Below, piece by piece: positions 1-23,381 of a stretch of DNA of 28,286 bases (its first letter is position 1; the number at the start of each line of letters is the position of its first letter). The stretch is from a virus. The DNA lies in the IMG/VR virus record IMGVR_UViG_3300010391_000840, positions 1 to 28,286 of that record. One strand, 5' to 3'. Made by a program: the position numbers and the translations under genes. Below the pieces are notes generated by a model. That model saw nothing but the letters and a program-made list of their open reading frames with translations, had not been told where the DNA came from and made no database searches.

Positions 1-3000
1 GATACCAGGAAGGAAGGCAACGACCTCATCCTTCAGCCCCTCACGGACAAGAAGGTCCGCGAGATGAGCAACGGGGCGCTACCAGATGCCGGACGCGCTC
101 TGCGAGCAAAGGATGCCAAGGAGGAGCCAGGCGGCATCTTCGACCAGAAGATCACGGGTGGCGTGAAAGGCAAGAAGTGGTCGCACATCCCGCTGCCCGA
201 GCGCATGCCGAACCCGGTGTTCGAAGGGCCCATTGCGGCGCTACTGGGTCTGAACCAGAACAGCTACAGGAGGGTGGTAACGGGTGAGGAGGAGTTAGGG
301 GGCAAGACTGGTCCTCAGGCCATCATTGGGGCACTCAAGGCCGTCGAGCCCAATAAGGTGAAGAAGGAGCTCGAGTCCAAGCTACCAGAGCTCCGCACCA
401 ACAAACTCAATGACGCCAACAAGCGGCTCAAGTATCTCCGGGCCATCGAGGGAGCTGGTCTCTCCCCCATCGAGGCCTACACCATGAAGCACCTGCCGGT
501 GCTGCCTCCGGCATTTCGCCCCATCACCATCCTCGATAGCGGAGACATCAACTACGATGATGTGAACCGCCTCTACAATCACATCGGGCAGATAGGCCTC
601 AAGTTCAAGGACTTCGACCCGGCTCTGCCCCCCGAGGAGAAGTTGCCACTACAGGCTTCTCTCTATGATGGCATCAAGGCCATCATGCTGACAGGCCAGG
701 TCCACCACGGCCGGCATCGCAACGCCATCATGCAGACCATATCCGGCTCGGGTGGGGAAGGTGGCCAGCCAAAGGAAGGCTTCTTCCAGGACAAGATCAT
801 TGGTCGACGGCAGGACCTGTCGATGCGCGGGGTCATCATCCCCGAGCCGTCTCTCAGCATGGACTATGTGGGCCTGCCGAGGAAGGCTGCAGCGGAAATC
901 TACAAGCCATTCATCGTTCGCCGCTTGGTGCAGATGGGCCAGAAGCCCCTCGATGCCCAGGATATGGTGAGAAAGAACCACCCAGCAGCCCTTGAGGCCC
1001 TGGAAGTCGTGCTCAAGGAGCGCCCTATCTGGCTCAAGCGGGACCCTGTCCTCCACAAGTTCGGTGTGCAGGCTTTTCTACCCCGCTTGGTTGAAGGCAA
1101 GGCAGTAAAGATCCACCCGCTCTCAACGGCGGGGTACAACGCAGACTTTGACGGCGACAAGATGTCCGCGTTCGTACCAGTGAGCGCGAAGGCTGTGAAG
1201 GAAGCCCTCCAGGCGCTTCCTTCCCGCAATCTCTTTAGCCCGACAACCGGGCTGCTCATGTCGAAGCCGACTCAAGAGTCCATGATGGGGCTCTACAAGC
1301 TGACGGAGGTCGACAAGAGGACTGCACTAAGGTTCCCCACTGCTGCCGAAGCAGCCCGTGCCGTAAAGGATGGGAAGGTCGGCATGAATGACCTCATCTC
1401 CATAGACGACATCAAGGATGACGCCTACTCGGAGATGCTGAAGAGCGCCTCGCCTCCTGTCAGGACAACCGTCGGGCGACTCATGCTGTACCAGTCCCTC
1501 CCCGAGCTGGTTCGAGAGTCGAAGCTGCTCTCGGACACTGGTTACTTGCTCGACAAGAAGAATCTCTACGGGCTACTCACTGACGTTGCGAAGAAGTCAC
1601 CCAGCGACTTTGGAGTGGTGTCTGACAGGTTCAAGGACATCGGTAACGAATTCGCCACCGGCATGTCCATTGGCCTCGATGATTTCCTCTCCGACCACGA
1701 ATACCGTGACGAAGTACTCCTGGATGCAGCCAAGAAGGAGAAGGAGATACGGGCTAGGACTTCCAGTCCTCAGAAGCGCAAGGAGGAGATCGTCAAGCTC
1801 TACGTTTCTGCTGCAGAGAAGATCCACTCAGAGACCAAGAAGAACGCTGACTCCAAGAAGAACCGCATGTACGACTGGGTCCGGTCCGGGGCTAGAGGCA
1901 GCTGGTCCCAGTACAAGCAGATGACTGTTGCCCCGATGCTGGTGGCGGACTCGAAGGGCGAGCCAGTTCCCATTCCGATTCCCAAGTCCTACTCCGAGGG
2001 CCTCGACATCGGCTCGTACTTCGCGTCGATGCACGGCGCCCGCATGGGTACCATTGGTCGTGTCCAGGGTACCCAGGCTCCTGGCAAGATGTCGAAGCAG
2101 CTCATCAACAGCACGATGAGCCAGCTCATTGTGGATGAGGACTGTGGCACACCCAAGGGCGTAGTGCTGGCCACTGACAACCGCGACGTGCTTGACCGCT
2201 TTACCGTGCGAGAGATTGACCTGGGCAACAAGGCAGGCCTGGACAAGGGCAAGATCTCTGCAGGTACGCTAGTTACCCCAGATCTGCTCAACCGCTTGAA
2301 GAACAACAAGATCAACAAGATCGAGGTGCGCTCGCCTTTGAAGTGTGCCCACGGCAAGGGCCTATGTGCGAAGTGCTACGGCCTGAATGAGGATGGTAAT
2401 CTACATCCTCGGGGGTCCAACGTTGGTGTCATCGCTGCCCAGGCTCTTGGTGAGCCGGCCACGCAGCTAGCGATGAACGCCTTCCACTGCAATCACGCAG
2501 ACTCAATTGTCTTCTGCCGGCACAGTGGCGGGTTAATTCTGGCCATGACGATGGAGGAGTTGTTCGAGACCGTCGATTCCGAGATCGAGCACGTCGGAGA
2601 AGAAGAGATCAAGCATGTCGCCGGTTGGGAGGTGCTTGATGGAGACAGGTGGACGGAAGTTGTTGCTCTACGCAGACACTGTGTCTCTCGGCCGATGCGG
2701 ATGCTCAGTGCTGGGGGAAGGGTGACCATTTGCCAGGACAATCATCCAGTGGCGGCTCGCCCCAATCTGGTTTCTTGTTCTGGCTGCGGTTACCATCGGC
2801 TCAAGAAGCCACGCCCAGCCAGCAATAGCCGGCGTGTGCACTGCCCCAGGTGTGGCCTCCGTCAGGCCCCACCTGCCAGGATGTTTGGGGAACTGGGTTT
2901 CGCTCCTCCCGTAGAACTGGAGCCGAAGAAGGTCTTCCTTGAGCTACACGGTGTGGAGGTTCGAGGGGACCAGGCCTTGAATCTTGCCTTTGACCCTTAC

Positions 3001-4431
3001 GTCGTCGGCATGTTCTTGGCTGAAGGGAATGTGACGTTCAAGAGATCCTACTCAGACCAAGCGGAAAAACATCCATACGCCGTCTGCTTCTCCCAGCTTC
3101 CAGGAGCAGTACGAGATCGGTTGCTTCAGCACTTGCCTAAAGAGTGGAGCCCCAAGGTTCATGACCGAGACGTTGTGGTGAACAGCTTGGAGCTTGGAGA
3201 GAAGTTCCACGCCCTGTTCGGGAGGTACTCGTTCAACAAGGCCCTGCCGCCTACCTTCTTGCACTTCACCTCTGAGTGGCTGAGGCACTTCTTGGCGGGT
3301 CTTATCGACGGTGATGGGCACATTCAGCATCACCGCAACGGCCCCGACTCTATCAGGATCGATACGACCAGTTTTGCTCTGGTCCAACAGGTCGTCTTTA
3401 TCTGTGACAGGCTAGGTATCAAGTCGGCCATCGTTGCCACTTCCACGCGTAGCCTCACCCGGCATCAAGGATTCAAGGTAAGTCTGACCATGACGACCGA
3501 AGCTCGGGCCTTGCTGTCCGAGTCGGTGAAAGTGTCAGAGGTAGTGCTGTTCAGCCCATCAAAGGGGCCCACCTACGGTTGTCATAGCCTCAAGCTGCTC
3601 ACTCTGAACAGAGAGGTGCTCTACACGAAGAAGTACGTGTACGACGCGACCACAAAAACGGGCACCTTGGTGGCGAGCGGCATCCAAAGCCACAACACAG
3701 GTGGTGTCGTGGGTGCGAAGGGTACTAGCGCCACGGGTCTCTTCAACCGTCTCGAGCAGCTCCTGAACGTACCCAAGAAGCTGCCTGGCGCCGCCACCCT
3801 AGCTGATATAGACGGCAAAGTAGGGGCCATCGATAAGGACCCGGCTGGTGGCTGGCGTGTACACGTGGGGGACACTAGCCACTACATCCCTGCCACGCGT
3901 GTCCTGACTGTGAAGAAAGGCGACGAGGTAAAGATGGGTGACGCTCTCTCTGATGGGCCGAAGAACCCCAGGGAGATGCTGGCGCGTACTAACATGAACG
4001 CTGTCCAGCAGTACCTCACGGACGAAATCTGGAACGCCTACAAGGATGAGGGCCCAGTGCGCCGGCGCAATGTCGAGACATTTGTGCGCGCCATGACCAA
4101 CCTCAGCGAGGTCTCGGACCCAGGTGCCCACGACACTCTGATGCGGGGGGATCACACCGCCACGTCCGAGATTGTAGCGTTCAACCGTAATCTCAAGTCC
4201 AGTCAGAAGCCCGTCCAGTACAAGCCACTCCTCCAGGGCGTCAACATGCTGCCACTCGAGCTCCAGACAGACTGGCTTGCCCGGTTGCAGCACAAGAATC
4301 TGAAGGACACTATCCTCGACGCTGCTGCCGAGGGATGGAAGTCTGTGCTACACAGCACCCACCCAATCCCCAGTATGGCGTATGGCAAGGAGTTCGGGCT
4401 GGGCACGGAGAAGGAGCCCTGGCTGTACTAG
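1..4431 (+). CDS. rpoC-like: DNA-directed RNA polymerase beta' subunit, 5'-partial, intein-containing
   Basis: This is the catalytic large subunit of a multisubunit RNA polymerase. The frame is open to the left edge. An ATG at 64 exists, but the residues before it (LTDKKVREMSNG) resemble the conserved N-terminus of bacterial beta', so the gene probably starts upstream. Seen in order: GGIFD-x-KITGG and WSHIPLPERMPNPVF (N-terminal core), IIGRRQDLSMRGVI, the Mg-binding NADFDGD (Asp codons 1144, 1150, 1156), SGARGS, a four-Cys zinc site (codons 2143, 2344, 2365, 2374), GVIAAQALGEPATQLAMNAFH and, after the intein, TGG and VKKGDEVKMGDALSDGP. Without the intein about 1050 residues remain, shorter than the roughly 1400 of E. 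coli RpoC. The N-terminal zinc ribbon is missing: KITGG runs almost straight into WSHIPL. The Arg of the trigger-loop MRTFH motif is Asn here. Phage origin follows from the downstream virion genes. The beta subunit is not in view. Confidence 0.96.
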   Translation, partial: DTRKEGNDLILQPLTDKKVREMSNGALPDAGRALRAKDAKEEPGGIFDQKITGGVKGKKWSHIPLPERMPNPVFEGPIAALLGLNQNSYRRVVTGEEELGGKTGPQAIIGALKAVEPNKVKKELESKLPELRTNKLNDANKRLKYLRAIEGAGLSPIEAYTMKHLPVLPPAFRPITILDSGDINYDDVNRLYNHIGQIGLKFKDFDPALPPEEKLPLQASLYDGIKAIMLTGQVHHGRHRNAIMQTISGSGGEGGQPKEGFFQDKIIGRRQDLSMRGVIIPEPSLSMDYVGLPRKAAAEIYKPFIVRRLVQMGQKPLDAQDMVRKNHPAALEALEVVLKERPIWLKRDPVLHKFGVQAFLPRLVEGKAVKIHPLSTAGYNADFDGDKMSAFVPVSAKAVKEALQALPSRNLFSPTTGLLMSKPTQESMMGLYKLTEVDKRTALRFPTAAEAARAVKDGKVGMNDLISIDDIKDDAYSEMLKSASPPVRTTVGRLMLYQSLPELVRESKLLSDTGYLLDKKNLYGLLTDVAKKSPSDFGVVSDRFKDIGNEFATGMSIGLDDFLSDHEYRDEVLLDAAKKEKEIRARTSSPQKRKEEIVKLYVSAAEKIHSETKKNADSKKNRMYDWVRSGARGSWSQYKQMTVAPMLVADSKGEPVPIPIPKSYSEGLDIGSYFASMHGARMGTIGRVQGTQAPGKMSKQLINSTMSQLIVDEDCGTPKGVVLATDNRDVLDRFTVREIDLGNKAGLDKGKISAGTLVTPDLLNRLKNNKINKIEVRSPLKCAHGKGLCAKCYGLNEDGNLHPRGSNVGVIAAQALGEPATQLAMNAFHCNHADSIVFCRHSGGLILAMTMEELFETVDSEIEHVGEEEIKHVAGWEVLDGDRWTEVVALRRHCVSRPMRMLSAGGRVTICQDNHPVAARPNLVSCSGCGYHRLKKPRPASNSRRVHCPRCGLRQAPPARMFGELGFAPPVELEPKKVFLELHGVEVRGDQALNLAFDPYVVGMFLAEGNVTFKRSYSDQAEKHPYAVCFSQLPGAVRDRLLQHLPKEWSPKVHDRDVVVNSLELGEKFHALFGRYSFNKALPPTFLHFTSEWLRHFLAGLIDGDGHIQHHRNGPDSIRIDTTSFALVQQVVFICDRLGIKSAIVATSTRSLTRHQGFKVSLTMTTEARALLSESVKVSEVVLFSPSKGPTYGCHSLKLLTLNREVLYTKKYVYDATTKTGTLVASGIQSHNTGGVVGAKGTSATGLFNRLEQLLNVPKKLPGAATLADIDGKVGAIDKDPAGGWRVHVGDTSHYIPATRVLTVKKGDEVKMGDALSDGPKNPREMLARTNMNAVQQYLTDEIWNAYKDEGPVRRRNVETFVRAMTNLSEVSDPGAHDTLMRGDHTATSEIVAFNRNLKSSQKPVQYKPLLQGVNMLPLELQTDWLARLQHKNLKDTILDAAAEGWKSVLHSTHPIPSMAYGKEFGLGTEKEPWLY
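2488..3696 (+). mobile_element. Intein with LAGLIDADG homing endonuclease in RNA polymerase beta'
   Basis: A 403-residue in-frame insertion splits the trigger-loop sequence AMNAFH/TGG. It begins with Cys1 (codon 2488) in CNHADS and ends with SHN, followed by Thr as the +1 nucleophile (codon 3697). This is a class 1 arrangement. Splicing block B is seen as CQDNHP, and the C-terminal blocks as VYDATTKTGTLVASG followed by the terminal HN. The homing endonuclease has two LAGLIDADG motifs: a degenerate VGMFLAEGN near 3010 and a good LAGLIDGDG at 3292-3318, both with acidic catalytic positions. Between block B and the endonuclease lies a CX2C-X18-CX2C zinc ribbon (Cys codons 2776, 2785, 2842, 2851), probably an added DNA-binding module. 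Splicing and endonuclease residues both look intact, so an active element is likely. The insertion follows the residue equivalent to the catalytic trigger-loop His, so unspliced protein should be inactive. Confidence 0.95.
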
Positions 4432-9163: not shown

Positions 9164-11542
9164 ATGGGACGGCTCAGCAAGATTGCAGCGCGGGTCACCG
9201 CGGCTGAGCGCGCCTACTACCAGGAAGGCGACTTGGGCCCAGGAGCGCCTGATCGGACGATTTCTTCGCTACCAAAAATCAAGGTGCCCCAGGTCTGGGA
9301 GTTCTCAGCCCACCCACACCTTGCTGAGCGGGCAGGCCCGCATATCGACCTGCGCTTGGGCAACCCCGAGACCGGCGTTGCGCACTCGTTCGTCCTGCCA
9401 AAGCGTACGGAGCTACCCGGACCTGGCCAGTCCGCACTCGTGGTGCCGACGTTCGACCACACCATCCCGTACATGGACTACACGGGCCCAATCTCAACTG
9501 AGTATGGCAAAGGCAAGGTCGAGAAGGGCCGCAGGACCCAAGCCGACGTCTATCATGCAACCCCCGACGATAAGCCAGGCACCAAGCTGCGCTTCAACCT
9601 CTATGACGGGCTCAGCCCCGAAGAGTACGCCATCATCCGCCTCGACCGGGGGTGGCGCATCGTCAACAAGACCCTGACTCGGGAGCGCCGCCCGGACCTG
9701 CCAGCGGACAAGCCCAAGTACAAGGAGCTGGACGTCTCGAAGGTGGACTCTACGACTCCCGGCCAGGTGATGATGCCCAAGCTCGACGGGGCGCATGGCA
9801 TCATCGACTTGCAGGCAGGCCGAGCCCCTAGGGTGTTCTCCTACCGCACGGCTAAAAAAGCGCCGACCGGCCTCATCGAGCACACCCACAAGCTGCCTGA
9901 CCTCCTCAAGGACAAGGTGCCGAAGTCCCTGGATGACACCATCCTGCGAGGTGAGATCCTCGCGGTCGACCAGAAGGGCAAGGCCCTGCCGGCAGAGACC
10001 ATTGGGGGTCTACTGAACACCAAGGTTTGGAACAGCCGGGCCAAGCAGGAGGAGCTTGGGGCTCGGCTGCACGCCTTCTCGTTCGACGTGGTGAAGTACA
10101 AAGGCAAGCCCATGGCGGATGCGCCCTTCAGTGAGAAGCTGAAGGTGCTGAAGCAAGTCGAGAAGGAGATAGGTGACCTCTGGCTGCCCGAGATCGCGAC
10201 CACCCCGAAGGAGAAGTCGAAGCTCCTGCAGCGCATTGAGCAGGGCAAGCACCCCCTCACTCGCGAGGGCGTGGTGTTGGTAAAGCCCGAGGTGCCGGGT
10301 TCCACCACCAAGGCCAAGTTCGCGCCCGACTTTGATGTGGTAGTCCGAGACGTCCACCCAGCGGTCAGTGGAAAGACTGGCGAGCCCCACGATCGCGCCG
10401 GTTCCATCAGCTACTCCTGGACCGGGAAGGGGCCCATCGTCGGGCAGCTTGGGGGCTTCTCACACGACCTCGGCAAGGACATGCTGAAGAACCCCGACAA
10501 GTACATAGGGCGAGCGGCTAAGGTGAAAGCCACCAAGGTGTTCGCCGGCGAACGGGGAGAACCGGGAGCTCTCTTCCAGCCCAGATTCAAGGAGTGGCAC
10601 TTGGAAAAGGGCGACATTGAGAAGGCAGCAGGGGTTGTCGACGTCACCACGCACGACAGTAGCGGCACTGAGCACATCAAGCCCTTCTCCTTCGTCAACC
10701 GCGTAGAGGGTAGCAAGCCTCCGGCTCTTGGCATCACCATGCTCAAGCCAGGCGGCAGGACTCTGGCAAACGTCAAGGCTACTGGAGAACTGAAAGTTGA
10801 TGGGAAACCCCTCAAGGTGACCAAGATCCAGGATGCTGAAGTCGTCTTCGCAAGCGAGGGTGACACCGAGAAAGCAGCCTTCCTGGACGAGCTCAGAAAG
10901 ATTGCTGCGCTTCAGCCGGAGGAAGTAGGTGAAGTAGAGATCACGCAAGACCCAGACGAGTTCACCTCCAAGCTGCAGCCTGGCGATGTTATCGTAACGA
11001 GGGGCAACCGCCGGCTCAGCAGGATCATCTCGTTGGTCCAACGGGTCAAGGGACTGCCAAAAGAGCGAGCTATGTGGACTCACTCTGGTCTCTACCTTGG
11101 TGATGGCAAGATGCGGCATGCGCACCTTCCCATTATCGGCAGGGGCATGGGTATGGGCGGCTCTAAGGTTCGGGATCACCGAATCGAGGCCGTCCACAAC
11201 CTGGGGGTGGACTTCCTGGCGTTGAGACCTGAAGTGCCAGAAGAGGAGCGCGGTGAGGCAATCACTCGTTCCAACGACCTTCTGGGTAAGAAGTTCAGTA
11301 CGTGGGCACTGACTCGTGCTGGCTTCTTGCCGAAGATGGAGTGGAAGAGCAAGGAGCTGAAGGAGAAGAATCTGCCTGAGAATGTCATCTGCACGTCTGT
11401 GGTGGGCTACAGCTACCCCAAGGTGCAGTTTGGCCCACCTATGAGGTCCATCCACAACCTGATGCCGGCAGAGGTAGCGGGAAGTCCAAAGCTTGCGCCT
11501 GTTGCCGCCCTGAGCGCAAAGTCCAAGTCGAAGATGGGGTAG
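9164..11542 (+). CDS. Fusion: LigD-type 3'-phosphoesterase, ATP-dependent DNA ligase and permuted papain-like hydrolase
   Basis: The 792-residue protein has three parts. Residues about 45-130 match the LigD 3'-phosphoesterase domain: the H-x-D-x-R core is HIDLR (H60, D62, R64), an upstream His pair is at 50/52, and DHTIPY supplies H99 and Y103. Residues about 195-470 are an ATP-dependent DNA ligase: motif I PKLDG (K206, the expected AMP-accepting Lys), GEIL (E264), AFSFD (305-308), EGVVLVKP (368-375) and KAKF (383-386), then an OB-like region. After the motif FLDELRKIA (573-581) comes a third domain with LQPGDVIVTRGN, WTHSG (H640) and VICTSVVGY (C743). The His-before-Cys order is that of the permuted NlpC/P60 (YiiX-like) hydrolases. 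The ligase part should clean 3' ends and seal nicks. The target of the papain-like part is unknown (amide or thioester bond). The polymerase/primase domain of full LigD is absent. The first two domains are firm, the third is probable. Confidence 0.9.
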   Translation: MGRLSKIAARVTAAERAYYQEGDLGPGAPDRTISSLPKIKVPQVWEFSAHPHLAERAGPHIDLRLGNPETGVAHSFVLPKRTELPGPGQSALVVPTFDHTIPYMDYTGPISTEYGKGKVEKGRRTQADVYHATPDDKPGTKLRFNLYDGLSPEEYAIIRLDRGWRIVNKTLTRERRPDLPADKPKYKELDVSKVDSTTPGQVMMPKLDGAHGIIDLQAGRAPRVFSYRTAKKAPTGLIEHTHKLPDLLKDKVPKSLDDTILRGEILAVDQKGKALPAETIGGLLNTKVWNSRAKQEELGARLHAFSFDVVKYKGKPMADAPFSEKLKVLKQVEKEIGDLWLPEIATTPKEKSKLLQRIEQGKHPLTREGVVLVKPEVPGSTTKAKFAPDFDVVVRDVHPAVSGKTGEPHDRAGSISYSWTGKGPIVGQLGGFSHDLGKDMLKNPDKYIGRAAKVKATKVFAGERGEPGALFQPRFKEWHLEKGDIEKAAGVVDVTTHDSSGTEHIKPFSFVNRVEGSKPPALGITMLKPGGRTLANVKATGELKVDGKPLKVTKIQDAEVVFASEGDTEKAAFLDELRKIAALQPEEVGEVEITQDPDEFTSKLQPGDVIVTRGNRRLSRIISLVQRVKGLPKERAMWTHSGLYLGDGKMRHAHLPIIGRGMGMGGSKVRDHRIEAVHNLGVDFLALRPEVPEEERGEAITRSNDLLGKKFSTWALTRAGFLPKMEWKSKELKEKNLPENVICTSVVGYSYPKVQFGPPMRSIHNLMPAEVAGSPKLAPVAALSAKSKSKMG

Positions 11543-11559
11543 CTACGAGTAGGTGATCT

Positions 11560-11841
11560 ATGCCTTTCAAGAGCGAGGCGCAGCGACGATGGGTGTACGC
11601 CAAGCACCCAGAGATGGCCAAGCGCTGGCAGGAGCACACGCCCAAGGACAAGCTACCCGAGAAGGTGAAGCATGCCGCGTTTCTCGATGAACTAACTAAG
11701 ATTGCAGACCTTGCCGGCCTGGTTCTCAGTCAGCTCGCCAGGCGAGAGGCGGCTCCTCCAGTCACCAAAGCCCTCAGTGACGTGGAGGAGTCCATCGCAG
11801 AGAAGTGGCGAAGATTCAGTACTCCAAGTCTAGGAATCTGA
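11560..11841 (+). CDS. Small SEAQRRW-type phage protein
   Basis: This 93-residue protein begins MPFKSEAQRRWVYAKHPEMA and continues KRWQEHTPK, a phrase that recurs in many small phage proteins of unknown role. The C-terminal half carries FLDELTKIA (residues 41-49), the same motif as in the ligase fusion upstream and in the protein at 23106. The site TAGGTGA lies just ahead of the start. Its last 26 bases overlap the 3' end of the convergent RNase HII gene. The basic, Trp-rich N-terminus suggests nucleic-acid binding, but this is inference. Confidence 0.78.
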   Translation: MPFKSEAQRRWVYAKHPEMAKRWQEHTPKDKLPEKVKHAAFLDELTKIADLAGLVLSQLARREAAPPVTKALSDVEESIAEKWRRFSTPSLGI

Positions 11842-12517
11842 AGTCACCATTAGGAGAGTCCTTCCAGACCTCCTCCCATTCCTTCCAGGAAGGCCGTGTC
11901 TTATCAATGCGGTCTCCAAAGCGGTGCCAGATCTTCTTGAGGAACAGACCCCGGTGATAGGAGCTAGGGCCCAGTCGGCAAAGTGCTTCTACGTGCTCCT
12001 CCGAGCCATAGCCCCTATTCTTCTCCCAGTGGTAGGACGGCCAGTGCCTGCTCATTCCGTCCATCTCCAGATCTCGCACTACCTTTGCCACGATGCTGGC
12101 AGCCCCTATCTGCCAGACCAAGGCATCGCCTCGGGCAATACCTTCCTGTTCGCCGGCGAACCCCCTCAGGTGCTTGTCCCCGTCTATCTTCAGGATGTTG
12201 ATGTTCTCTTCAGGAGCTCCTTCCAGCGCGTCGAGACAAGCTCTCCGCCAAGCCTCTTCCAGCCCTAGCAGGTCAATGACAGACGGGTGGGCCCAGCCAA
12301 TGCCGAAGAAGCTTGCTTCCTGCATGATGATGGGCGCGAGCTCAGCTCTCTTGCTGGACGACAGCTTCTTGGAGTCTCCTACTCCCTTTACTGGTGTGGC
12401 GTTGGTGGGGAAGACAACTACTACAGCGCAAATCGGCCCGGCTAAGGCCCCCATGCCGACTTCATCTAGGCCTGCGCACAAACCTCTGGTCTCCCTTGAA
12501 CTTCCCGGTCTTTGCAT
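11816..12517 (-). CDS. rnhB: Ribonuclease HII
   Basis: This is a 233-residue RNase HII, which cuts 5' of ribonucleotides embedded in DNA. Seen: GLDEVGMGALAGP (catalytic D18, E19), GVGDSKKLSSSKR, ILKIDGDKHL (third metal acid region), ALVWQIGAASIVAKVVRD and NRGYGSEEHVEALCRLGPS with the following YHRGLF. These match the family in order and spacing, and the length is normal. The start at 12517 is preferred: GGAG lies five bases upstream, and the longer form from 12568 would overlap the upstream gene more and add a non-family tail. The usual GRG motif, which reads the RNA-DNA junction, is GMG here. The gene is on the minus strand inside a plus-strand late cluster and overlaps its upstream neighbour by 56 bases, so the two are probably co-transcribed. 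Confidence 0.93.
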   Translation of the reverse strand: MQRPGSSRETRGLCAGLDEVGMGALAGPICAVVVVFPTNATPVKGVGDSKKLSSSKRAELAPIIMQEASFFGIGWAHPSVIDLLGLEEAWRRACLDALEGAPEENINILKIDGDKHLRGFAGEQEGIARGDALVWQIGAASIVAKVVRDLEMDGMSRHWPSYHWEKNRGYGSEEHVEALCRLGPSSYHRGLFLKKIWHRFGDRIDKTRPSWKEWEEVWKDSPNGDFRFLDLEY

Positions 12518-12824
12518 CCCGACTCCATGTCCGTGTTTGGGTGAGCACTTCGGCCTGAATCCAACCATCGTGGATGTCGATGATCGGTACGTCGCAACTG
12601 AACTCCTGTGCCCAGGCTCGGAGATATGCTCGAAGGGGCTCTCTTGTGTCTTTCCCCAAGGGGTGCAGGAGTGTAATCTTCAGGATGAACCGCAACGGGT
12701 CGACTGTCGGGTAGACTTGGAACTGTGAGCGGATGACGTCATCGCCGACAGCGGAAAGGATGCCAAGTCTGGCGTGCTCAACCCACTGTAGTCGTTGACG
12801 GGCTAGTCTTTCCTTCGAGGTCAC
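12462..12824 (-). CDS. Unrecognised 120-residue protein upstream of rnhB
   Basis: I recognise no family. The best start is GTG at 12824; the Shine-Dalgarno site is weak and the frame stays open a little further upstream into terL, so the start is uncertain. The N-terminus is basic (SKERLARQRLQWVEHARLG), the middle has an alternating strand-like run (PLRFILKITLLHPLG) and then a helix (EPLRAYLRAWAQEF) before IIDIHDGWIQAEV, and the end is basic and disordered. Composition is like that of a real small alpha/beta protein. The 56-base overlap with rnhB, whose ribosome site lies inside this gene, supports a two-gene minus-strand unit. A longer plus-strand frame on the other strand has Pro/Ser-rich nonsense composition and was discarded. 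Confidence 0.6.
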   Translation of the reverse strand: MTSKERLARQRLQWVEHARLGILSAVGDDVIRSQFQVYPTVDPLRFILKITLLHPLGKDTREPLRAYLRAWAQEFSCDVPIIDIHDGWIQAEVLTQTRTWSRDAKTGKFKGDQRFVRRPR

Positions 12825-12855
12825 AACACTCTTATACCAGGAAGGTCCGACGCTT
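12825..12855. promoter_or_regulatory. Short divergent gap between the minus-strand unit and terL
   Basis: Only 31 bases separate the GTG start on the minus strand from the first possible terL start. The gap holds AGGAAGG (12838-12844), the probable terL ribosome site, and TATAAG on the minus strand (TTATA on the plus strand near 12831), which could serve as part of a -10 element. There is too little room for two full sigma-70 promoters, and the phage polymerase may use other signals. Confidence 0.25.
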
Positions 12856-15800
12856 GTGATGGGGAACGGTGCGATGGCTGAGCTGGTTCCAAGATCTGAG
12901 AATCCCGATGATCGACCATCCTCGATCTTTGAGTCGGACCCGGACCCTTACGATAACCCCCTCGCGCTTAAGACCCTTCGCGCCAACGAGGAGCTCGAGG
13001 CCTCGGAGTTGACCCGCGTCGGCCCCATGGCAGCCACGCCGTCGGAGTTCGTAACTGGCGCGCTGAGGATTCCAACCAAGGGCAAGCTAGACAACTTCAG
13101 CTTCAAGGGCCGCGAGTACCTCAAGGCCATCTACGACAGCTCAGCTAGGCGACGCCTTCTGGTTGCCGGGAGACAGGTCGAGAAAACCGTCTGGGTTGAC
13201 GCGCTGGTGAGCCGGGCCGATGGGGCCTTGGCCCCCGCGGGGGACATCAGGGTCGGGGACGAGCTGGCCACGATGTCCAACGACGGCGTGACCATGACTC
13301 ACGGGATCGTGAGCTGGGTCTCCAAGCGGTACACGAAGCCATGCGTGCGCATCACGACCCGCCAGGGACACGTGGTTGAGGTTGCCCTGACCCACCCAAT
13401 GCGTCTGTGGGACCAGTGGGTGGAGGTCGGCAACCTCAAGGTCGGGGACCGTCTAGCCGCGGTGAGAAGAGCAGGGGTCTTCACGGGCGTTGTGAAGATG
13501 CCGGACGAGCGCGTACGACTGACCGCGTATCTCCTTGGAGACGGGTGCCTCCTTCAGCAAGTAGGCTTCACGTCCTTGCCGGGCAAGAAGATGACGGAGT
13601 TCCTTGCCGATCTCAAAAAGGTTGGCGGGTCAGCGAAGGTGTACGCGAAGAAGGACACCAAGGCGCTAGCTGCACGCCTGCATGTTGGCCCAGTCCACCA
13701 GTGGCTAGAGCAGGATGGGCTTCGCGGCCACAAGTCGGCTACCAAGTTCATCCCGGCTTGGGTCTTCGGCCTATCTCGGAAACAGACCGCCCTTTTCCTG
13801 AACCGTCTGTGGTCAACGGACGGCCATGTCAAGAAGAACGGACCTTCGAAGTACTCCATCGAGTACTGCTCCATCTCCAAGCGGCTCATCAAGGACGTCC
13901 AGGCACTACTCTGGAAGTTCGGTATCCCCTCCAAGATTCGGGAGAACTGGCCCAACATCTACAAGCGTCGTGGTGAGAAGAAACTCGCCTACATCCTACG
14001 GGTGGAGACGCAGGAGGGCGTGCGCCGCTTCCTCCAGGACGTGGGGGCCTTCACCAAGTCCGAGAAGATCAAGCTGCCGGCTCTTGGGTCGAACAACAAC
14101 CGGGACACCTACCCCAAGGAAGTCAACGGGCTCATCGGCAGAATCCTCGCGTCGCGCGGGAAGGACGACTGGCGCGAGAACCGGGAGGGTGGCAGCCTCC
14201 ATCTAGCCGACTTGCGGCGTACGATGAAGTACGCGCCGACGCGAAAGAAGCTCATCACCTATCTCCAGTTCTTCCAGAGTCACCCAGGCTTCAACAAGGG
14301 ACTGGTCGACGAGTTGGCCCTCCGTGTCCGGACGAGCGACCTGTACTGGGATGAGATCATCTCCATTAGGGCTCTTGGGCTCCAGACCTGTGTCGACTTC
14401 GAGGTTGGGGGTACTCACAATTTCATCGCGGAGGGGTTGGTCACCCACAACAGCACCCTCCTTGGCAACATTCTTCTGGCCTATTCCCAGATCAACCCGT
14501 ACTTCCGGACTCTTTACGTCTCCCCCTCGAACCAGCAAACGAAGGTCTTCAGCCGCGACCGTGTCTCGGAGCCCATCGAGCTCTCCCCACTCCTGCAGCA
14601 GACTACCAACAGCAAGCTGCTAAAGAACGTCCTCGAGAAGAGGTTCGTCAACCGCTCCCAGATCACGTTGCGCTTTGCCTTCCTCAATGCCGACCGCGCC
14701 CGAGGGATTCCCGCGGATCTCGTCGAGATCGACGAGTTCCAGGACATCCTTTTGGACAACGTACCTGTCATCGAGGAGTGTGCGTCCCACTCTGACTTCA
14801 AGTACTTCATCTACTCGGGCACGCCAAAGTCCCTGGACAACTCCATCGAATACTACTGGACGCGCTTCTCGACCCAGAACGAGTGGTCAGTTCCCTGCAA
14901 GAGGCATGGTAGCCCGAAGAAGCCTGGTTCCTGGCACTGGAACATCCTCGATGAGGAGAACATCGGGGAGCAATCTCTCATCTGCAACAAGTGCGGGAAG
15001 CAGATACGGGCAGACGACCCCGATGCCCGCTGGGTGGCGCTGAACCCGCACCCGAACGTGGAGAAGCCATTCGAGGGATTCCGCATCCCACAGCTCATGG
15101 TTCCCTGGATCGACTGGTCGGACATCAAGAACAAGCAGCGGGTCTACAGCCGGGCCAAGTTCTACAACGAGGTGCTCGGGCGCAGCTACGACGCAGGTAC
15201 ACGCCCACTTACCCGCCGTGACGTACAGCGTAACTGCTGGGACGAGCTCTCGATGAGGTACTACCGGGAGATCCTCCAGTACAGCAGCTCATACCCTATC
15301 TACATGGGCATTGACTGGGGCAGCGCTGAGTCGAGCTATACCGTAGTGACTCTGGGTGGATACCTGCCCTTCGCTCCTGACCGCTACACCGTCTTCTATT
15401 GGCATCGTTTCGAGGGTGTGGAGTCCGAACCGAGAAAGCAGCTCGAGATCATTCGCAAGCTGGTCGTCGACTTCAACGTGCAGAAGATTGGGGCCGACTA
15501 TGGTGGTGGCCACTGGCCCAACGACGAGCTGACCCGAGACTTCGGCGCCGACAAGGTGAAGAAGTACCAGTGGGTCGGCAACGTGAAGAAGAAGATCAAG
15601 TTCGAAGCCCAGATGGGCGTACCCCGGCATCTCTGCCACCGCACAGAGGTCATGTCCGACATCTTCAACGCCATCAAGCGAGGAAACGTCTTCTGGTTCC
15701 CCAGGTGGGAGGAGTTTGAGGACCCCTTTGCCGCGGACATGCTGAACATCTACTCGGAGTACAACGACCGCCTCAGGATGAACATCTACAAGGCAGCTCC

Positions 15801-15972
15801 GAGTCACCCTGACGACTCGTTCCACTCGCTGGCGTTTGGATTCCTGGCTTCGTTCTACGTACAACCGAGGCCGGATGTTATCTTGCCCACTAAGGAAGTG
15901 CAGCGCCAGCAGGGTCTGACGGGAACCGAGGCCGAAGAGGACGACGAGATGGAGGACCTCGATGTTGTCTAG
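12856..15972 (+). CDS. terL: Terminase large subunit, intein-containing
   Basis: This is the ATPase/nuclease motor that packages DNA into proheads. The 1038-residue precursor gives about 616 residues after splicing. Walker A is split: LLVAGRQVEK before and STLLGN after the intein, so the mature site reads GRQVEKST. Walker B is LVEIDEFQD (Asp 14731, Glu 14734), followed by the coupling motif YSGTPKS (from 14812). A zinc-ribbon-like insert has Cys at 14896, 14983 and 14992. The RNase H-fold nuclease has MGIDWGS (Asp 15313), IGADYGG (Asp 15496) and HPDDSFHSLAFG (Asp 15811/15814). Starts at 12856 (GTG), 12859 and 12874 (ATG) are all possible; AGGAAGG at 12838-12844 suits the first. No small subunit was recognised next to it. 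The stop codon overlaps the stop of the convergent helix-turn-helix gene. Confidence 0.95.
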   Translation: MMGNGAMAELVPRSENPDDRPSSIFESDPDPYDNPLALKTLRANEELEASELTRVGPMAATPSEFVTGALRIPTKGKLDNFSFKGREYLKAIYDSSARRRLLVAGRQVEKTVWVDALVSRADGALAPAGDIRVGDELATMSNDGVTMTHGIVSWVSKRYTKPCVRITTRQGHVVEVALTHPMRLWDQWVEVGNLKVGDRLAAVRRAGVFTGVVKMPDERVRLTAYLLGDGCLLQQVGFTSLPGKKMTEFLADLKKVGGSAKVYAKKDTKALAARLHVGPVHQWLEQDGLRGHKSATKFIPAWVFGLSRKQTALFLNRLWSTDGHVKKNGPSKYSIEYCSISKRLIKDVQALLWKFGIPSKIRENWPNIYKRRGEKKLAYILRVETQEGVRRFLQDVGAFTKSEKIKLPALGSNNNRDTYPKEVNGLIGRILASRGKDDWRENREGGSLHLADLRRTMKYAPTRKKLITYLQFFQSHPGFNKGLVDELALRVRTSDLYWDEIISIRALGLQTCVDFEVGGTHNFIAEGLVTHNSTLLGNILLAYSQINPYFRTLYVSPSNQQTKVFSRDRVSEPIELSPLLQQTTNSKLLKNVLEKRFVNRSQITLRFAFLNADRARGIPADLVEIDEFQDILLDNVPVIEECASHSDFKYFIYSGTPKSLDNSIEYYWTRFSTQNEWSVPCKRHGSPKKPGSWHWNILDEENIGEQSLICNKCGKQIRADDPDARWVALNPHPNVEKPFEGFRIPQLMVPWIDWSDIKNKQRVYSRAKFYNEVLGRSYDAGTRPLTRRDVQRNCWDELSMRYYREILQYSSSYPIYMGIDWGSAESSYTVVTLGGYLPFAPDRYTVFYWHRFEGVESEPRKQLEIIRKLVVDFNVQKIGADYGGGHWPNDELTRDFGADKVKKYQWVGNVKKKIKFEAQMGVPRHLCHRTEVMSDIFNAIKRGNVFWFPRWEEFEDPFAADMLNIYSEYNDRLRMNIYKAAPSHPDDSFHSLAFGFLASFYVQPRPDVILPTKEVQRQQGLTGTEAEEDDEMEDLDVV
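13186..14451 (+). mobile_element. Intein with LAGLIDADG endonuclease in the terL P-loop, Thr at position 1
   Basis: A 422-residue in-frame insertion lies between the Lys and Ser of the terminase Walker A motif. The N-terminal block reads TVWVDALV, which aligns with the usual C-x3-D-T-x-V at Asp5 and Val8, so position 1 is Thr rather than Cys or Ser. Block B is VEVALTHP: the His is kept but the usual Thr three residues earlier is Ala. The C-terminal blocks are TCVDFEVGGTHNF and GLVTHN, with penultimate His, terminal Asn and Ser at +1 (codon 14452). The endonuclease carries LLGDGC (13531-13548) and LWSTDGH (13807-13827), both with catalytic Asp. Because mature terminase needs this P-loop, splicing is expected to work despite the odd first residue. 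The boundaries follow from the extein sequence GRQVEK/STLL. Confidence 0.92.
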
Positions 15973-18930: not shown

Positions 18931-21900
18931 ATGCTCACTAAGCTCGCCACCTTCCGGGGAGTCTCACCCGCTGGAGAGCCTCTCGTAAGGCTCTTCGAGT
19001 CGGGTGCTCCCTTGATCAAGGAAGCCGGTGCGCTGATGCCGGAGATCAAGCAGTGGATGGCAGGCTACAAGGCTGAGAGCGGCAAGCTGGCGATTCTTGT
19101 CAACGCAATGGGCTCGTCGGAGTACTGGGGCCAGAACGTCAATGGGGATGTCTTTCCAGAGGCCGCGCTCATACATGACTGCCGCAACCACAAGGACCAA
19201 GCACACCCCTACGACGACTTCACGGGCAAGATCATCCCTCCGTATGGGTACTGGACCTTCCTGAGCGCCTTCCCGTTCGTACACCACAGAAACAAGGACC
19301 CAAGCCGGGCCTTTGGCCATGTTGCCTTGGCGGCGTGGAACCCAAAGATGCACCGGGTTGAACTTGTCGTCATCATAGACAAGTCCCTGGCCATGCAGCA
19401 TGGGGCACAGGATGTCGTAGACCGCATAGAAGCTGGAGAATATCCAGACTGCAGCATGGGCTGCAGAGTGCCTTACGACGTATGCTCGGTGTGCCTCAAT
19501 AAGTCAAAGACACGCAATGACTACTGCTCGTGTGTCAAAGAAATAGGGATGGGGAAGATCCTCGATGACGGCCGTCGCATCGGCGTCATCAACTTCCACC
19601 CCCGCTTCTTCGACATCTCATTCGTCTTCATCGGCGCCGACAAGACCGCTAAGGTCATGTGCAAGCTCGGCTCTGGACTCGTAGTGCCCCAAAGTGTCGC
19701 TGACGCGGATCTGCTTTACGGCCCAGAAACTGGAATCCCCGAGGAAGGGTTGCTGAAGGCTGCATCATCTACGATTCGGGATATCGGCATCGGCACTGGG
19801 GCAGGTAGTTTGGGTGGGGCTTTGGGCTGGGGTGCCATGGAGTTGCTCAAACACCGAGGCAAGCCTCACCCTGGGATGCTCAAAGGCTTGGCGCGAGCTG
19901 CGGGCGAATGGGGTATTGCAGGGGGTACCACAACTGGAGTTCTCTCTGCCTTGCAAAAGCGTGGAGGAGCTACTCAAGGTCTGGTGACAGCAGATGTAGA
20001 GGAAGCCAGGTTCCCAGACGTGAAGACCGAGAGGAAGAAGCTTGACGAAGCTGTGCTCGAGCGCGTGATGGGGCGCACTGAGGGTGGCAAGGTCATTGAC
20101 GAGAAGACTGCTGGTCTCAAGGACCTCAAGTCCATCACTCACCTTTTCGAGAACCTAGCCGGCAAGCCACCGAAGGGCCGCATCGGCAAACGTCCAATAA
20201 GCGCTGCCAATCTCCTAGGAAAGTCGGCTGCCGAGAGGCCGGATCCTACGGACGATGCGGATACCCGACTTCTGATGGGGCGGGTAGACAATCAGGAAAG
20301 CCCGACTGCCATTGGTGACGGCACGGTCCACACGAACATCTTCCACAACGAGGGGGAAGACTCAGCTGGGGTGGACCGTAGCAGTGGGTTTACTGACGCT
20401 CCACCGTGGAGACCGAGAGTCGAGCCGTTCAAGAAGCGGCCCAAGGTAGAGACTCTTGCTCCTCAGTCCCCTCATGACTACAGGGTCCAGTGGAGTGGTG
20501 ACGTAGGTGGTGACAGCACCAATCTGAGCAAGGAGTCATTCGACGTCGAGAGAGCACACAAGAAGCTCGTCGATCGCAAGACGGGTCTCACTGAGACCTT
20601 CGAGCGCGCCAAGCACATCAAGATAGGCCCTCCACCAACGCCGAACCGCAGGGAGTACCCATTCACTGGCACCATCGAGTTCAAGGGCCTGACCATCCAC
20701 GTCGAGAACGCCCCTGGCACCATCCGGAAGGGCAAGACGTGGCAGACCGAGATGAAGCTTCCCTATGGGGAGATTCTTAGTACTCGCGGTACCGATGGGG
20801 ACAAGCTTGACGTCTACGTAGGCCCCTGGCGCGATGCAGAGAATGCGTACATCGTCCACCAGAACTTCGTCGGCGGCCCCAAGGATGGCCGGTATGACGA
20901 AGACAAAGTGATGCTGGGCTTCGAATCTGCTGAGCAGGCCAAGGCGGCCTATCTAGCGCACTACACCAACCCGAAGTTCTTCCGTTCCATCACCGCGATG
21001 GCCTTCCCTCTCTTCAAGAGGGCAATCCTCCGAAAGGAAGCGCACGGGGAGAAGCTTGCTTCTGCCTGGAGCAGTGTTGTTGCAGGCTTGGTGATGGAGG
21101 ATGAACTCCAGGTCAGAGTGCAAGAGGTACCCAGCATGGAAAAGGACGCCGCTGATCTAGAGGAACTCTTCTCTAGCTCTGCAACTGCCCGACGCCGGCA
21201 GCGCACCTGGCGGGACAAGGTCACCGGCAGGGAAACAAACGTCACCGGCTCGGGCATGGAGAGCTCGGACAAGGCCAAGACTGCGTCCGTGGATATCGAG
21301 ACCATGAAGGTGGAACGTGTCCTTCATGGTGGCTGGTCCCTGGAGGACCTGCTGAAGGTTTCGAACGAGACAAAGGCTGCAGCTCACCTGAAGTGGGCTG
21401 ACATCGTGAAGTGCATCGGCCCCAGCAAGGCGGTAGGTAGGGCAACCCCGCTCCTGTCCCAGAATGAGCCTGACCTACCGGCCGAGGTCCTCAACAAGCT
21501 TGGCGCAGATGAAGACTTGAAGAAGGGGCTCGCCACGCCTGCCCTGATGGGTATGATGCTGAAGCCCAAAGAGTTCCAGCGCATCATCCTCATTCACATA
21601 GGCAAGTCCGACTTGGCAGACAAGTTGGACAGTGCGGATGAAGTGTTCAAGCCAAGCGAGGAGAGTGCAGCACCCTGCGAACCGCTTGAGCCGGATCACT
21701 TTGACGACCACCTTCTCAAGACGCTACTTCCATTCCTGGAAGGGAAGTCGTATACGGGTCCTGTGGTGAGACGCCGGATCATTCGCATCATTGCAATGAA
21801 GCCCACTTCTCACCCTGAATCAAAGGAAGTAGATTCTCCTCTTCTATCCAAGGTAGCGTCCGCATACACTTGGTACAGAAAAGAGGTCATGAAGTTGGCG

Positions 21901-22272
21901 AGAGCACTACCAGCAACCGTGACAAGTCACCCGGAGCTCCATGCCAGGACTCTTGGTGTCAGTACGGAAGACCTCTTCAGCAAGACCGCTGCAGGTGAGC
22001 ACGCACTCAGTCCTCGCTCAGTAGCGATTCTGTTGGGGACGGTTCCTCTCTCACTTCTCTATGCGGCGCACAAGCGCCAACAGATGGAGAAAGGCGAGGA
22101 CATTGGTCTGCTGGCGGCTCTCATTGCAGAACACCCCTGGCTCACTTCCATGGGTGTCGTGACTGGACTGGGCGCGCTTCTTCGCGGTCCCAGGGCTCGT
22201 CAGGCTGTCGATGAAGCGTTCGCAGCCGGCGACCGCAACTGGCGTGGGAAGCAGTTACCAGCAAGTGCGTAG
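18931..22272 (+). CDS. Prohead maturation protease fused to a pyrophosphatase-like domain and C-terminal membrane segments
   Basis: The 1113-residue protein starts three bases after the previous stop, without a strong ribosome site, so it is probably coupled. Residues about 50-240 match a phage head-maturation protease: QNVNGDVFPEAAL, AFGHVALAAWNP (candidate catalytic H130), EYPDCSMGCRVP (candidate Ser165) and NFHPRFFDISFVFIGADKTA. A Cys cluster (164, 168, 175, 178, 189, 191) right after the Ser probably binds zinc. Next come a Gly-rich hydrophobic stretch (about 280-345) and a charged disordered linker. Residues about 573-693 resemble the InPase domain of phage polyvalent proteins: WQTEMKLPYGE, then TDGDKLDVYVGP, and later YDEDKVMLGF. 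The C-terminus has two hydrophobic segments (about 1030-1090). The protease should cut scaffold and capsid proteins during assembly. The role of the other parts is unknown, and self-cleavage into several products is plausible. Confidence 0.85.
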   Translation: MLTKLATFRGVSPAGEPLVRLFESGAPLIKEAGALMPEIKQWMAGYKAESGKLAILVNAMGSSEYWGQNVNGDVFPEAALIHDCRNHKDQAHPYDDFTGKIIPPYGYWTFLSAFPFVHHRNKDPSRAFGHVALAAWNPKMHRVELVVIIDKSLAMQHGAQDVVDRIEAGEYPDCSMGCRVPYDVCSVCLNKSKTRNDYCSCVKEIGMGKILDDGRRIGVINFHPRFFDISFVFIGADKTAKVMCKLGSGLVVPQSVADADLLYGPETGIPEEGLLKAASSTIRDIGIGTGAGSLGGALGWGAMELLKHRGKPHPGMLKGLARAAGEWGIAGGTTTGVLSALQKRGGATQGLVTADVEEARFPDVKTERKKLDEAVLERVMGRTEGGKVIDEKTAGLKDLKSITHLFENLAGKPPKGRIGKRPISAANLLGKSAAERPDPTDDADTRLLMGRVDNQESPTAIGDGTVHTNIFHNEGEDSAGVDRSSGFTDAPPWRPRVEPFKKRPKVETLAPQSPHDYRVQWSGDVGGDSTNLSKESFDVERAHKKLVDRKTGLTETFERAKHIKIGPPPTPNRREYPFTGTIEFKGLTIHVENAPGTIRKGKTWQTEMKLPYGEILSTRGTDGDKLDVYVGPWRDAENAYIVHQNFVGGPKDGRYDEDKVMLGFESAEQAKAAYLAHYTNPKFFRSITAMAFPLFKRAILRKEAHGEKLASAWSSVVAGLVMEDELQVRVQEVPSMEKDAADLEELFSSSATARRRQRTWRDKVTGRETNVTGSGMESSDKAKTASVDIETMKVERVLHGGWSLEDLLKVSNETKAAAHLKWADIVKCIGPSKAVGRATPLLSQNEPDLPAEVLNKLGADEDLKKGLATPALMGMMLKPKEFQRIILIHIGKSDLADKLDSADEVFKPSEESAAPCEPLEPDHFDDHLLKTLLPFLEGKSYTGPVVRRRIIRIIAMKPTSHPESKEVDSPLLSKVASAYTWYRKEVMKLARALPATVTSHPELHARTLGVSTEDLFSKTAAGEHALSPRSVAILLGTVPLSLLYAAHKRQQMEKGEDIGLLAALIAEHPWLTSMGVVTGLGALLRGPRARQAVDEAFAAGDRNWRGKQLPASA

Positions 22273-23105: not shown

Positions 23106-23381
23106 ATGGAGAGTCGGATGCTGGCTTCTTTCACCGATGAGCTTCAGAAGATCGCCGAGGGCAACGCGGCTGAGCCCGTGAAGCCTCTCGTCGGTGGTCT
23201 GGGGTCCAACGTGGTGGGGAAGCCGCTTCCGACCTCCGGTCTTCCGAAGGGCAACGTATCGCTCTCGGCAAAGCCAGCTCGACCCACGAACTACACCATG
23301 GTCCACTCGAACGCGCCAATGGCGGCTTTTGATGGCGGTGCTGCTGTGAAGTCAGTGCCTCCGCCGCTCGTGGAAACCTAA
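23106..23381 (+). CDS. Small protein with N-terminal F-x-D-E-L-x-K-I-A motif
   Basis: The product has 91 residues from ATG 23106; an ATG at 23118 with GGAG six bases upstream is an equally good start and would place the motif closer to the N-terminus. Residues 9-17 read FTDELQKIA, shared with the proteins at 9164 and 11560. The rest is Pro/Gly/Ser/Val-rich and probably disordered, ending KSVPPPLVET. It sits between two scaffold-like genes, 13 and 11 bases from its neighbours. It may be a minor internal head protein. I recognise no family. Confidence 0.75.
   Translation: MESRMLASFTDELQKIAEGNAAEPVKPLVGGLGSNVVGKPLPTSGLPKGNVSLSAKPARPTNYTMVHSNAPMAAFDGGAAVKSVPPPLVET

Follow-up and report, generated by a model that had tools for sequence, protein, structure and literature searches.

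A LigD-like phosphoesterase-ligase with a tagged papain-like C-terminus in an uncultured large phage, a candidate packaged repair protein

Introduction

Bacterial LigD proteins, including those of Mycobacterium and Pseudomonas, join a 3'-phosphoesterase (PE) to an ATP-dependent ligase, and many, though not all, also carry a polymerase domain. Permuted papain-like enzymes of the YaeF/YiiX type (Peptidase_C92, with the solved structures BcPPNE 3kw0 and YiiX 2if6) share a fold in which His precedes Cys; the roles of the active-site residues in permuted NlpC/P60 proteins have been set out, solved members of the permuted family have hydrophobic S1 pockets, and the family has been proposed to consist of amidases acting on lipid-amino acid bonds (PMC3142127). 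Phage polyvalent proteins place disparate enzyme domains in one polypeptide within a late gene context, SNF2 helicase fusions are typical of them, and InPase is among their listed domains (Iyer et al. 2017, PMC5512222). The T4 capsid-targeting sequence (CTS) is a short, mostly N-terminal peptide common to otherwise unrelated proteins of one phage (PMC5694885). LigD-type PEs, ATP ligases, C92 enzymes, polyvalent proteins and capsid-targeting peptides are each already known; what is new to us is their combination, together with the short peptide FxDELxKIA, which we refer to as the tag.

Here we describe this combination in a 28,286-base stretch of IMG/VR record IMGVR_UViG_3300010391_000840 (the window). 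Its source is an uncultured large phage, with genes for an RNAP beta'-like subunit, a terminase, an InPase-fused head protein and a major capsid protein (MCP).

Results

The open-reading frame at 9164–11542 begins with ATG and is uninterrupted over 792 aa (Table 1). Searched in full with tblastn, the protein gave zero matches in cultured phages, its PE-ligase part gave just weak matches to generic DNA ligases, and a PE-ligase profile found zero relatives in 84,980 bacterial and archaeal genomes. The PE-ligase is present in 12 further contigs; 11 of these, sharing 38–78% identity with the window protein, were aligned with it, and the truncated L025 was left out.

Table 1 Features of the phosphoesterase-ligase locus in the window.
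Feature	Position	Strand	Evidence
Whole ORF, 792 aa: PE, ATP ligase, insert, tag, permuted papain-like domain	9164..11542	+	
LigD-type 3'-phosphoesterase (predicted), residues ~46-168 (H52, H60, D62, R64, H99, Y103)	9299..9667	+	Pfam LigD_N; profile match to solved PE domains 3p43/3p4h/5dmp; invariant residues
ATP-dependent ligase fold, nucleotidyltransferase + OB, residues ~175-485 (K206, E368, K383, K385; motif I KLDGAH)	9686..10618	+	Pfam; PHROG; AF2 model vs solved ligases
Insert of ~77 residues (490-566), only in window protein, no confident family	10631..10861	+	Alignment; scans
FLDELRKIA tag, residues 573-581, ligase/hydrolase border	10880..10906	+	Sequence; motif scans
Permuted papain-like (Peptidase_C92-type) domain, residues ~601-785 (H640, H652, C743)	10964..11518	+	AF2 model vs 3kw0/2if6; homologues match PF05708
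93-aa ORF, second tag FLDELTKIA (11680-11706); in relatives fused to other domains	11560..11841	+	
RNase HII, opposite strand beside PE-ligase	11816..12568	-	Pfam PF01351 1.6e-28; homology search
91-aa tagged protein (FTDELQKIA, 23130-23156), capsid module, upstream of MCP (25905)	23106..23381	+	

On sequence profiles, the N-terminal domain is a LigD-type 3'-phosphoesterase. Pfam LigD_N matches the window protein at E 2e-4, under the curated cut-off, and exceeds the cut-off in two orthologues, L203 and L205 (E 3.2e-11 and 7.4e-9). Residues H52, H60, D62, R64, H99 and Y103 are invariant in 12 of 12 aligned sequences. The first three align to His42, His48 and Asp50 of Pseudomonas LigD, which we take to be active-site residues of its PE. 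The other three align to its PE residues Arg52, His84 and Tyr88, which are named in PMC8656161.

The region that follows matches Pfam DNA_ligase_A_M (4e-8) and phrog_114 (8e-18), and its AF2 model (mean pLDDT 66.6) matches an archaeal ligase (2cfm, Z 20.4) and M. tuberculosis LigD (6nhx, Z 18.1). Motif I is KLDGAH in the window protein, and all 12 aligned sequences have AH at its end, so that His replaces the Arg of the usual KxDGxR whilst the Lys is kept; L002 has Asn in place of the motif Asp, and the motif-III Glu is missing from L203 and L205. We take the ligase fold to be established by the modelling but, given these departures, not the ligase activity. Scans with Pfam and NCBIfam found no polymerase domain in the 792-aa protein, where the named domains leave too little space for one, and no Ku was recognised in the six contigs searched, which are possibly incomplete. 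Neither a second ATP ligase nor an NAD ligase was recognised in the contigs searched; the known PE-ligase of the 177-kb contig also escaped the ATP-ligase search, so that there may be further divergent ligases. The protein is thus like bacterial LigD in its order of PE then ATP ligase, its kept PE active-site residues and its fold match to the M. tuberculosis enzyme, but differs in having no polymerase and no Ku found, in its motif-I His, in its phage-specific C-termini and in its place in a virion gene block.

Whilst the PE-ligase is, by sequence, a conserved core, the part that follows it is swappable. Three relatives (L002, L020 and L202) end soon after a tag-like sequence, which lies at the extreme C-terminus, two (L001 and L003) carry the tag and short tails, and L203–L206 stop at about the end of the core. 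The L022 PE-ligase runs on into an SNF2 helicase (3e-23) and that of L024 into a DnaJ-like region with a weak score (2e-4), the latter protein having the tag near its end; among the closer relatives, most PE-ligase proteins have the tag on their C-terminal side. In L025, whose contig is truncated, some 1,400 aa follow the PE-ligase and include a papain-like segment that partially matches the window domain (hhalign 91.5%, 69 columns). By eye, this ~1,400-aa protein (86–4312) shows ParB-like, HExxH, papain-like and ART-like stretches, with no Pfam support. The exact fusion of PE-ligase and C92-type domain was found in one contig, and the first-pass annotation, made from the window alone, had called it a combination not known; it is less a unique fusion than one example of the swappable C-termini that follow a conserved PE-ligase. 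A second swappable position lies beside the PE-ligase, where a shared start, MPFKSxAQRR..., occurs in L003 (9651–12041), L002 (9725–11293), L024 (5971–8157) and the window (11560–11841) with differing partners (SNF2 helicase, papain-like segment, short ORF).

With at least two unrelated enzymatic domains, the PE-ligase and the C92-type domain, in a late/virion neighbourhood, the window protein has the features of a polyvalent protein. The likeness extends to the SNF2 fusion in orthologue L022 and to the InPase domain elsewhere in the window, but none of LigD-type PE, DNA ligase or papain-like domain turned up as a term in PMC5512222.

Between the ligase and the hydrolase lie an insert of ~75–77 aa (490–566) and the tag (573–581), both absent from the domain list of the first-pass annotation, which was otherwise right. 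The best match of the insert, Flavin_Reduct at E 0.018, was taken as chance. The same annotation had allowed for a sequencing error joining two genes near 10870, and an assembly or sequencing artefact at this point would suit a fusion known from one contig as well as the GC3, which is 0.76–0.90 over 9314–10513 and 0.64–0.74 from 10514, a drop from ~0.82 to ~0.68 past the ligase core. However, there is a single open frame, coding-type GC3 is continuous through the junction, no start codon stands just before the tag, and orthologues carry different C-terminal extensions at the same point, whilst the GC3 step also fits a later acquisition of the C-terminal part. We found no sign of such an error, reject it on frame and coding bias, and regard an artefact of any kind as very improbable.

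A Pfam scan of the window C-terminal domain gave no C92 match, just NlpC/P60 at E 0.07, and as the sole query against IMG/VR the domain had no match; the search worked only once tagged homologues were in hand. Stand-alone tagged proteins with the same domain (L163/L076, L165/L031 and L167/L085) were found via the FxDELxKIA motif search, and three stand-alone phage homologues match Pfam Peptidase_C92 (PF05708, best 1e-10). The AF2 model (220 aa, pLDDT 72.7) matches BcPPNE 3kw0 (Z 15.8 over 170 residues, rmsd 3.1), YiiX 2if6 (Z 14.0) and PLAAT phospholipases (Z near 7.5). Together, the C92 matches of the stand-alone homologues and the model's Z-scores to 3kw0 and 2if6 show the fold to be papain-like and permuted. 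H640 precedes C743, which is the permuted order and rules out a classical, non-permuted NlpC/P60 domain, and H652 takes the place of the third residue. The domain therefore shares fold and His-then-Cys order with YaeF/YiiX-type enzymes, but has His652 rather than Glu, Phe711 where NlpC/P60 has its active-site Tyr (Phe also in L163), and a linkage to the PE-ligase and the tag.

Profiles, AF2 models and aligned residues thus uphold the earlier reading of a PE-ligase without the polymerase followed by a permuted NlpC/P60-type hydrolase, and the fold matches and alignment likewise agree with its order of His640 then Cys743. Its statement that all main catalytic residues are present holds for the PE and fails at motif I and at Phe711. 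Our best guess at the target of the hydrolase is a lipid-linked amide or acyl bond, as the permuted family has been proposed to contain lipid-amino acid amidases; a wall target is less likely given the hydrophobic S1 pockets of its solved members (PMC3142127).

Three tags occur in the window, FLDELRKIA at the junction and one each in the 93-aa ORF (11560) and the 91-aa ORF (23106). Across IMG/VR, FxDELxKIA with a CTN leucine was found in at least 119 stretches compared with 17 for a codon-permuted control, and a scored tag search of seven contigs returned 32 matches compared with 2 in reversed proteins. Among the matches listed (124 distinct ORFs), the tag fell in the first 60 aa of 66 of 99 complete ORFs, where 35 were expected, and a Shine-Dalgarno-like site preceded the nearby Met in 49 of 92, compared with 12 for internal Mets; in a minority of the ORFs among these matches the tag is internal or C-terminal. 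Pfam families in 96 tagged proteins comprised C92, SNF2, GNAT, InPase, DnaJ, transketolase and zinc peptidase (one to three each); most were without a Pfam family, and some matches will be chance. The motif-bearing L075 and L110 have a transketolase-type look (two tagged members match Transket_pyr) and are probably chance motif matches. Clusters of three to four small tagged genes were seen in both of the large contigs, G003 (24.8–25.6 kb) and G004 (146.5–147.6 kb).

A 21-aa tblastn probe did not find the tag in cultured phages, and it was not found in Salmonella phage Arash (about 172 of 181 kb scanned) or in Pseudanabaena phage PA-SR01. Six exact tag strings gave no relevant match in open-access full text, which is weak evidence of absence as subscription papers lie mostly outside it. 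The tag, short and mostly N-terminal, occurs on unrelated proteins that include one of the capsid module; in this pattern it resembles the T4 CTS, and it is probably a capsid- or virion-targeting signal comparable in use. It differs from the CTS in sequence and in also being internal or C-terminal.

The position of the tag exactly at the domain border keeps reasonable the idea of a precursor, in which the tag region would be a linker cut by the prohead protease and the fusion would serve only to make PE-ligase and hydrolase, separate in the end, from one gene. The same tag and C92 domain are known as separate genes, and T4 and giant-phage precedents cut N-terminal propeptides (PMC5694885); however, no cleavage site is known for the clade, and in L002, L020 and L202, with their tag-like sequence at the extreme C-terminus, a cut would free few residues. 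We consider such a linker unlikely.

The RNase HII gene adjoins the PE-ligase on the opposite strand in all eight loci tested, the terminase lies downstream of the PE-ligase with the MCP in the same block, and this arrangement is kept in related contigs. In five related contigs the gene at 23106 keeps its place, flanked by the InPase-fused head protein and the MCP, and in four of them its tag is recognisable. The 1113-aa head-module protein of the window (18931–22272) has an InPase-like domain (PF18823) at 579–697 and an N-terminal part without family. The RNAP beta'-like gene (64–4431) and the terminase gene (12856–15972) each have an intein-like insertion with homing-endonuclease-type matches, and the L020 terminase (9206–13464) seemingly has two intein-like insertions.

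This neighbourhood bears on a further explanation, in which the PE-ligase would act only late in the cell, unpackaged: RNase HII would nick at leftover ribonucleotides, the PE-ligase would clean 3' ends and seal, giving an intact concatemer for the neighbouring terminase, and the tag would dock proteins on a shared intracellular or assembly partner. Both RNase HII and terminase adjoin the PE-ligase in related loci, the enzyme could be the general phage ligase as no other was recognised in the contigs searched, and for the ligase this account is nearly as simple. However, it leaves the added hydrolase, the SNF2-type fusions and the tag unexplained, one tagged protein sits in the capsid module, and a divergent second ligase may have escaped a search that missed the PE-ligase of the 177-kb contig. 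We regard such purely intracellular repair as possible but doubtful.

Discussion

We give about even odds to the 792-aa product being a packaged, polyvalent-type repair enzyme with an added hydrolase, in which the tag is a probable virion-targeting signal. The sequences and models show the domain folds, their conservation, the swappable C-termini, the recurrence of the tag and the genomic context; enzymatic activities, packaging, injection and substrate we infer. The protein would belong to the late virion gene block, and its conserved core, a PE followed by an ATP ligase, would heal 3' ends and seal nicks as the sole DNA ligase recognised in the clade; encoded beside RNase HII, it probably acts where phage DNA is broken or carries ribonucleotide nicks. 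Behind the FxDELxKIA tag, the core would have gained in this phage a permuted papain-like (C92) hydrolase, which most likely cuts a host amide or acyl bond that is perhaps linked to a lipid. By virtue of the tag, the entire protein would be packaged and delivered with the DNA, so that on entry the PE-ligase may repair the incoming genome whilst the hydrolase acts on its host target.

The packaged enzyme is favoured by the domain folds, by variable C-termini that include an SNF2 fusion typical of polyvalent proteins, by a tag that recurs across many unrelated large-phage proteins, in most cases close to the N-terminus and with Shine-Dalgarno-like sites before the nearby Met, by the tagged gene in the capsid module and the occurrence of tag and C92 as separate genes, and by the absence of a recognised second ligase or Ku together with the RNase HII that adjoins all eight loci. 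Against it stand the loss of the motif-I Arg to His in all 12 sequences, the Asn of L002, the missing motif-III Glu of L203 and L205 and the Phe for Tyr in the hydrolase, as well as a tag that, unlike the T4 CTS, may also lie internally or at the C-terminus and did not turn up in either cultured phage scanned, and an exact fusion confined to one contig. The first-pass suggestion, end healing of the genome on entry together with the cutting of a wall or protein bond, is a possibility short of proof; it draws indirect support from the gene's place in the late virion block, from the tag and from the fact that no other ligase was recognised.

More broadly, and with a little less than even confidence, FxDELxKIA may serve a large phage group, most of it uncultured, as a dedicated signal for loading the capsid, marking a delivered set of helicases, acetyltransferases, permuted papain-like hydrolases, zinc peptidases and a genome-healing-and-sealing PE-ligase, with effectors gained as tag-plus-domain cassettes behind existing genes, as in the window protein. 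If the motif does predict particle-bound proteins, candidate injected proteins could be read directly from metagenomes; if a 3'-end-healing ligase is packaged, the phage would carry its own genome repair at entry; and the swappable C-terminus would represent polyvalent proteins caught in the act of gaining domains.
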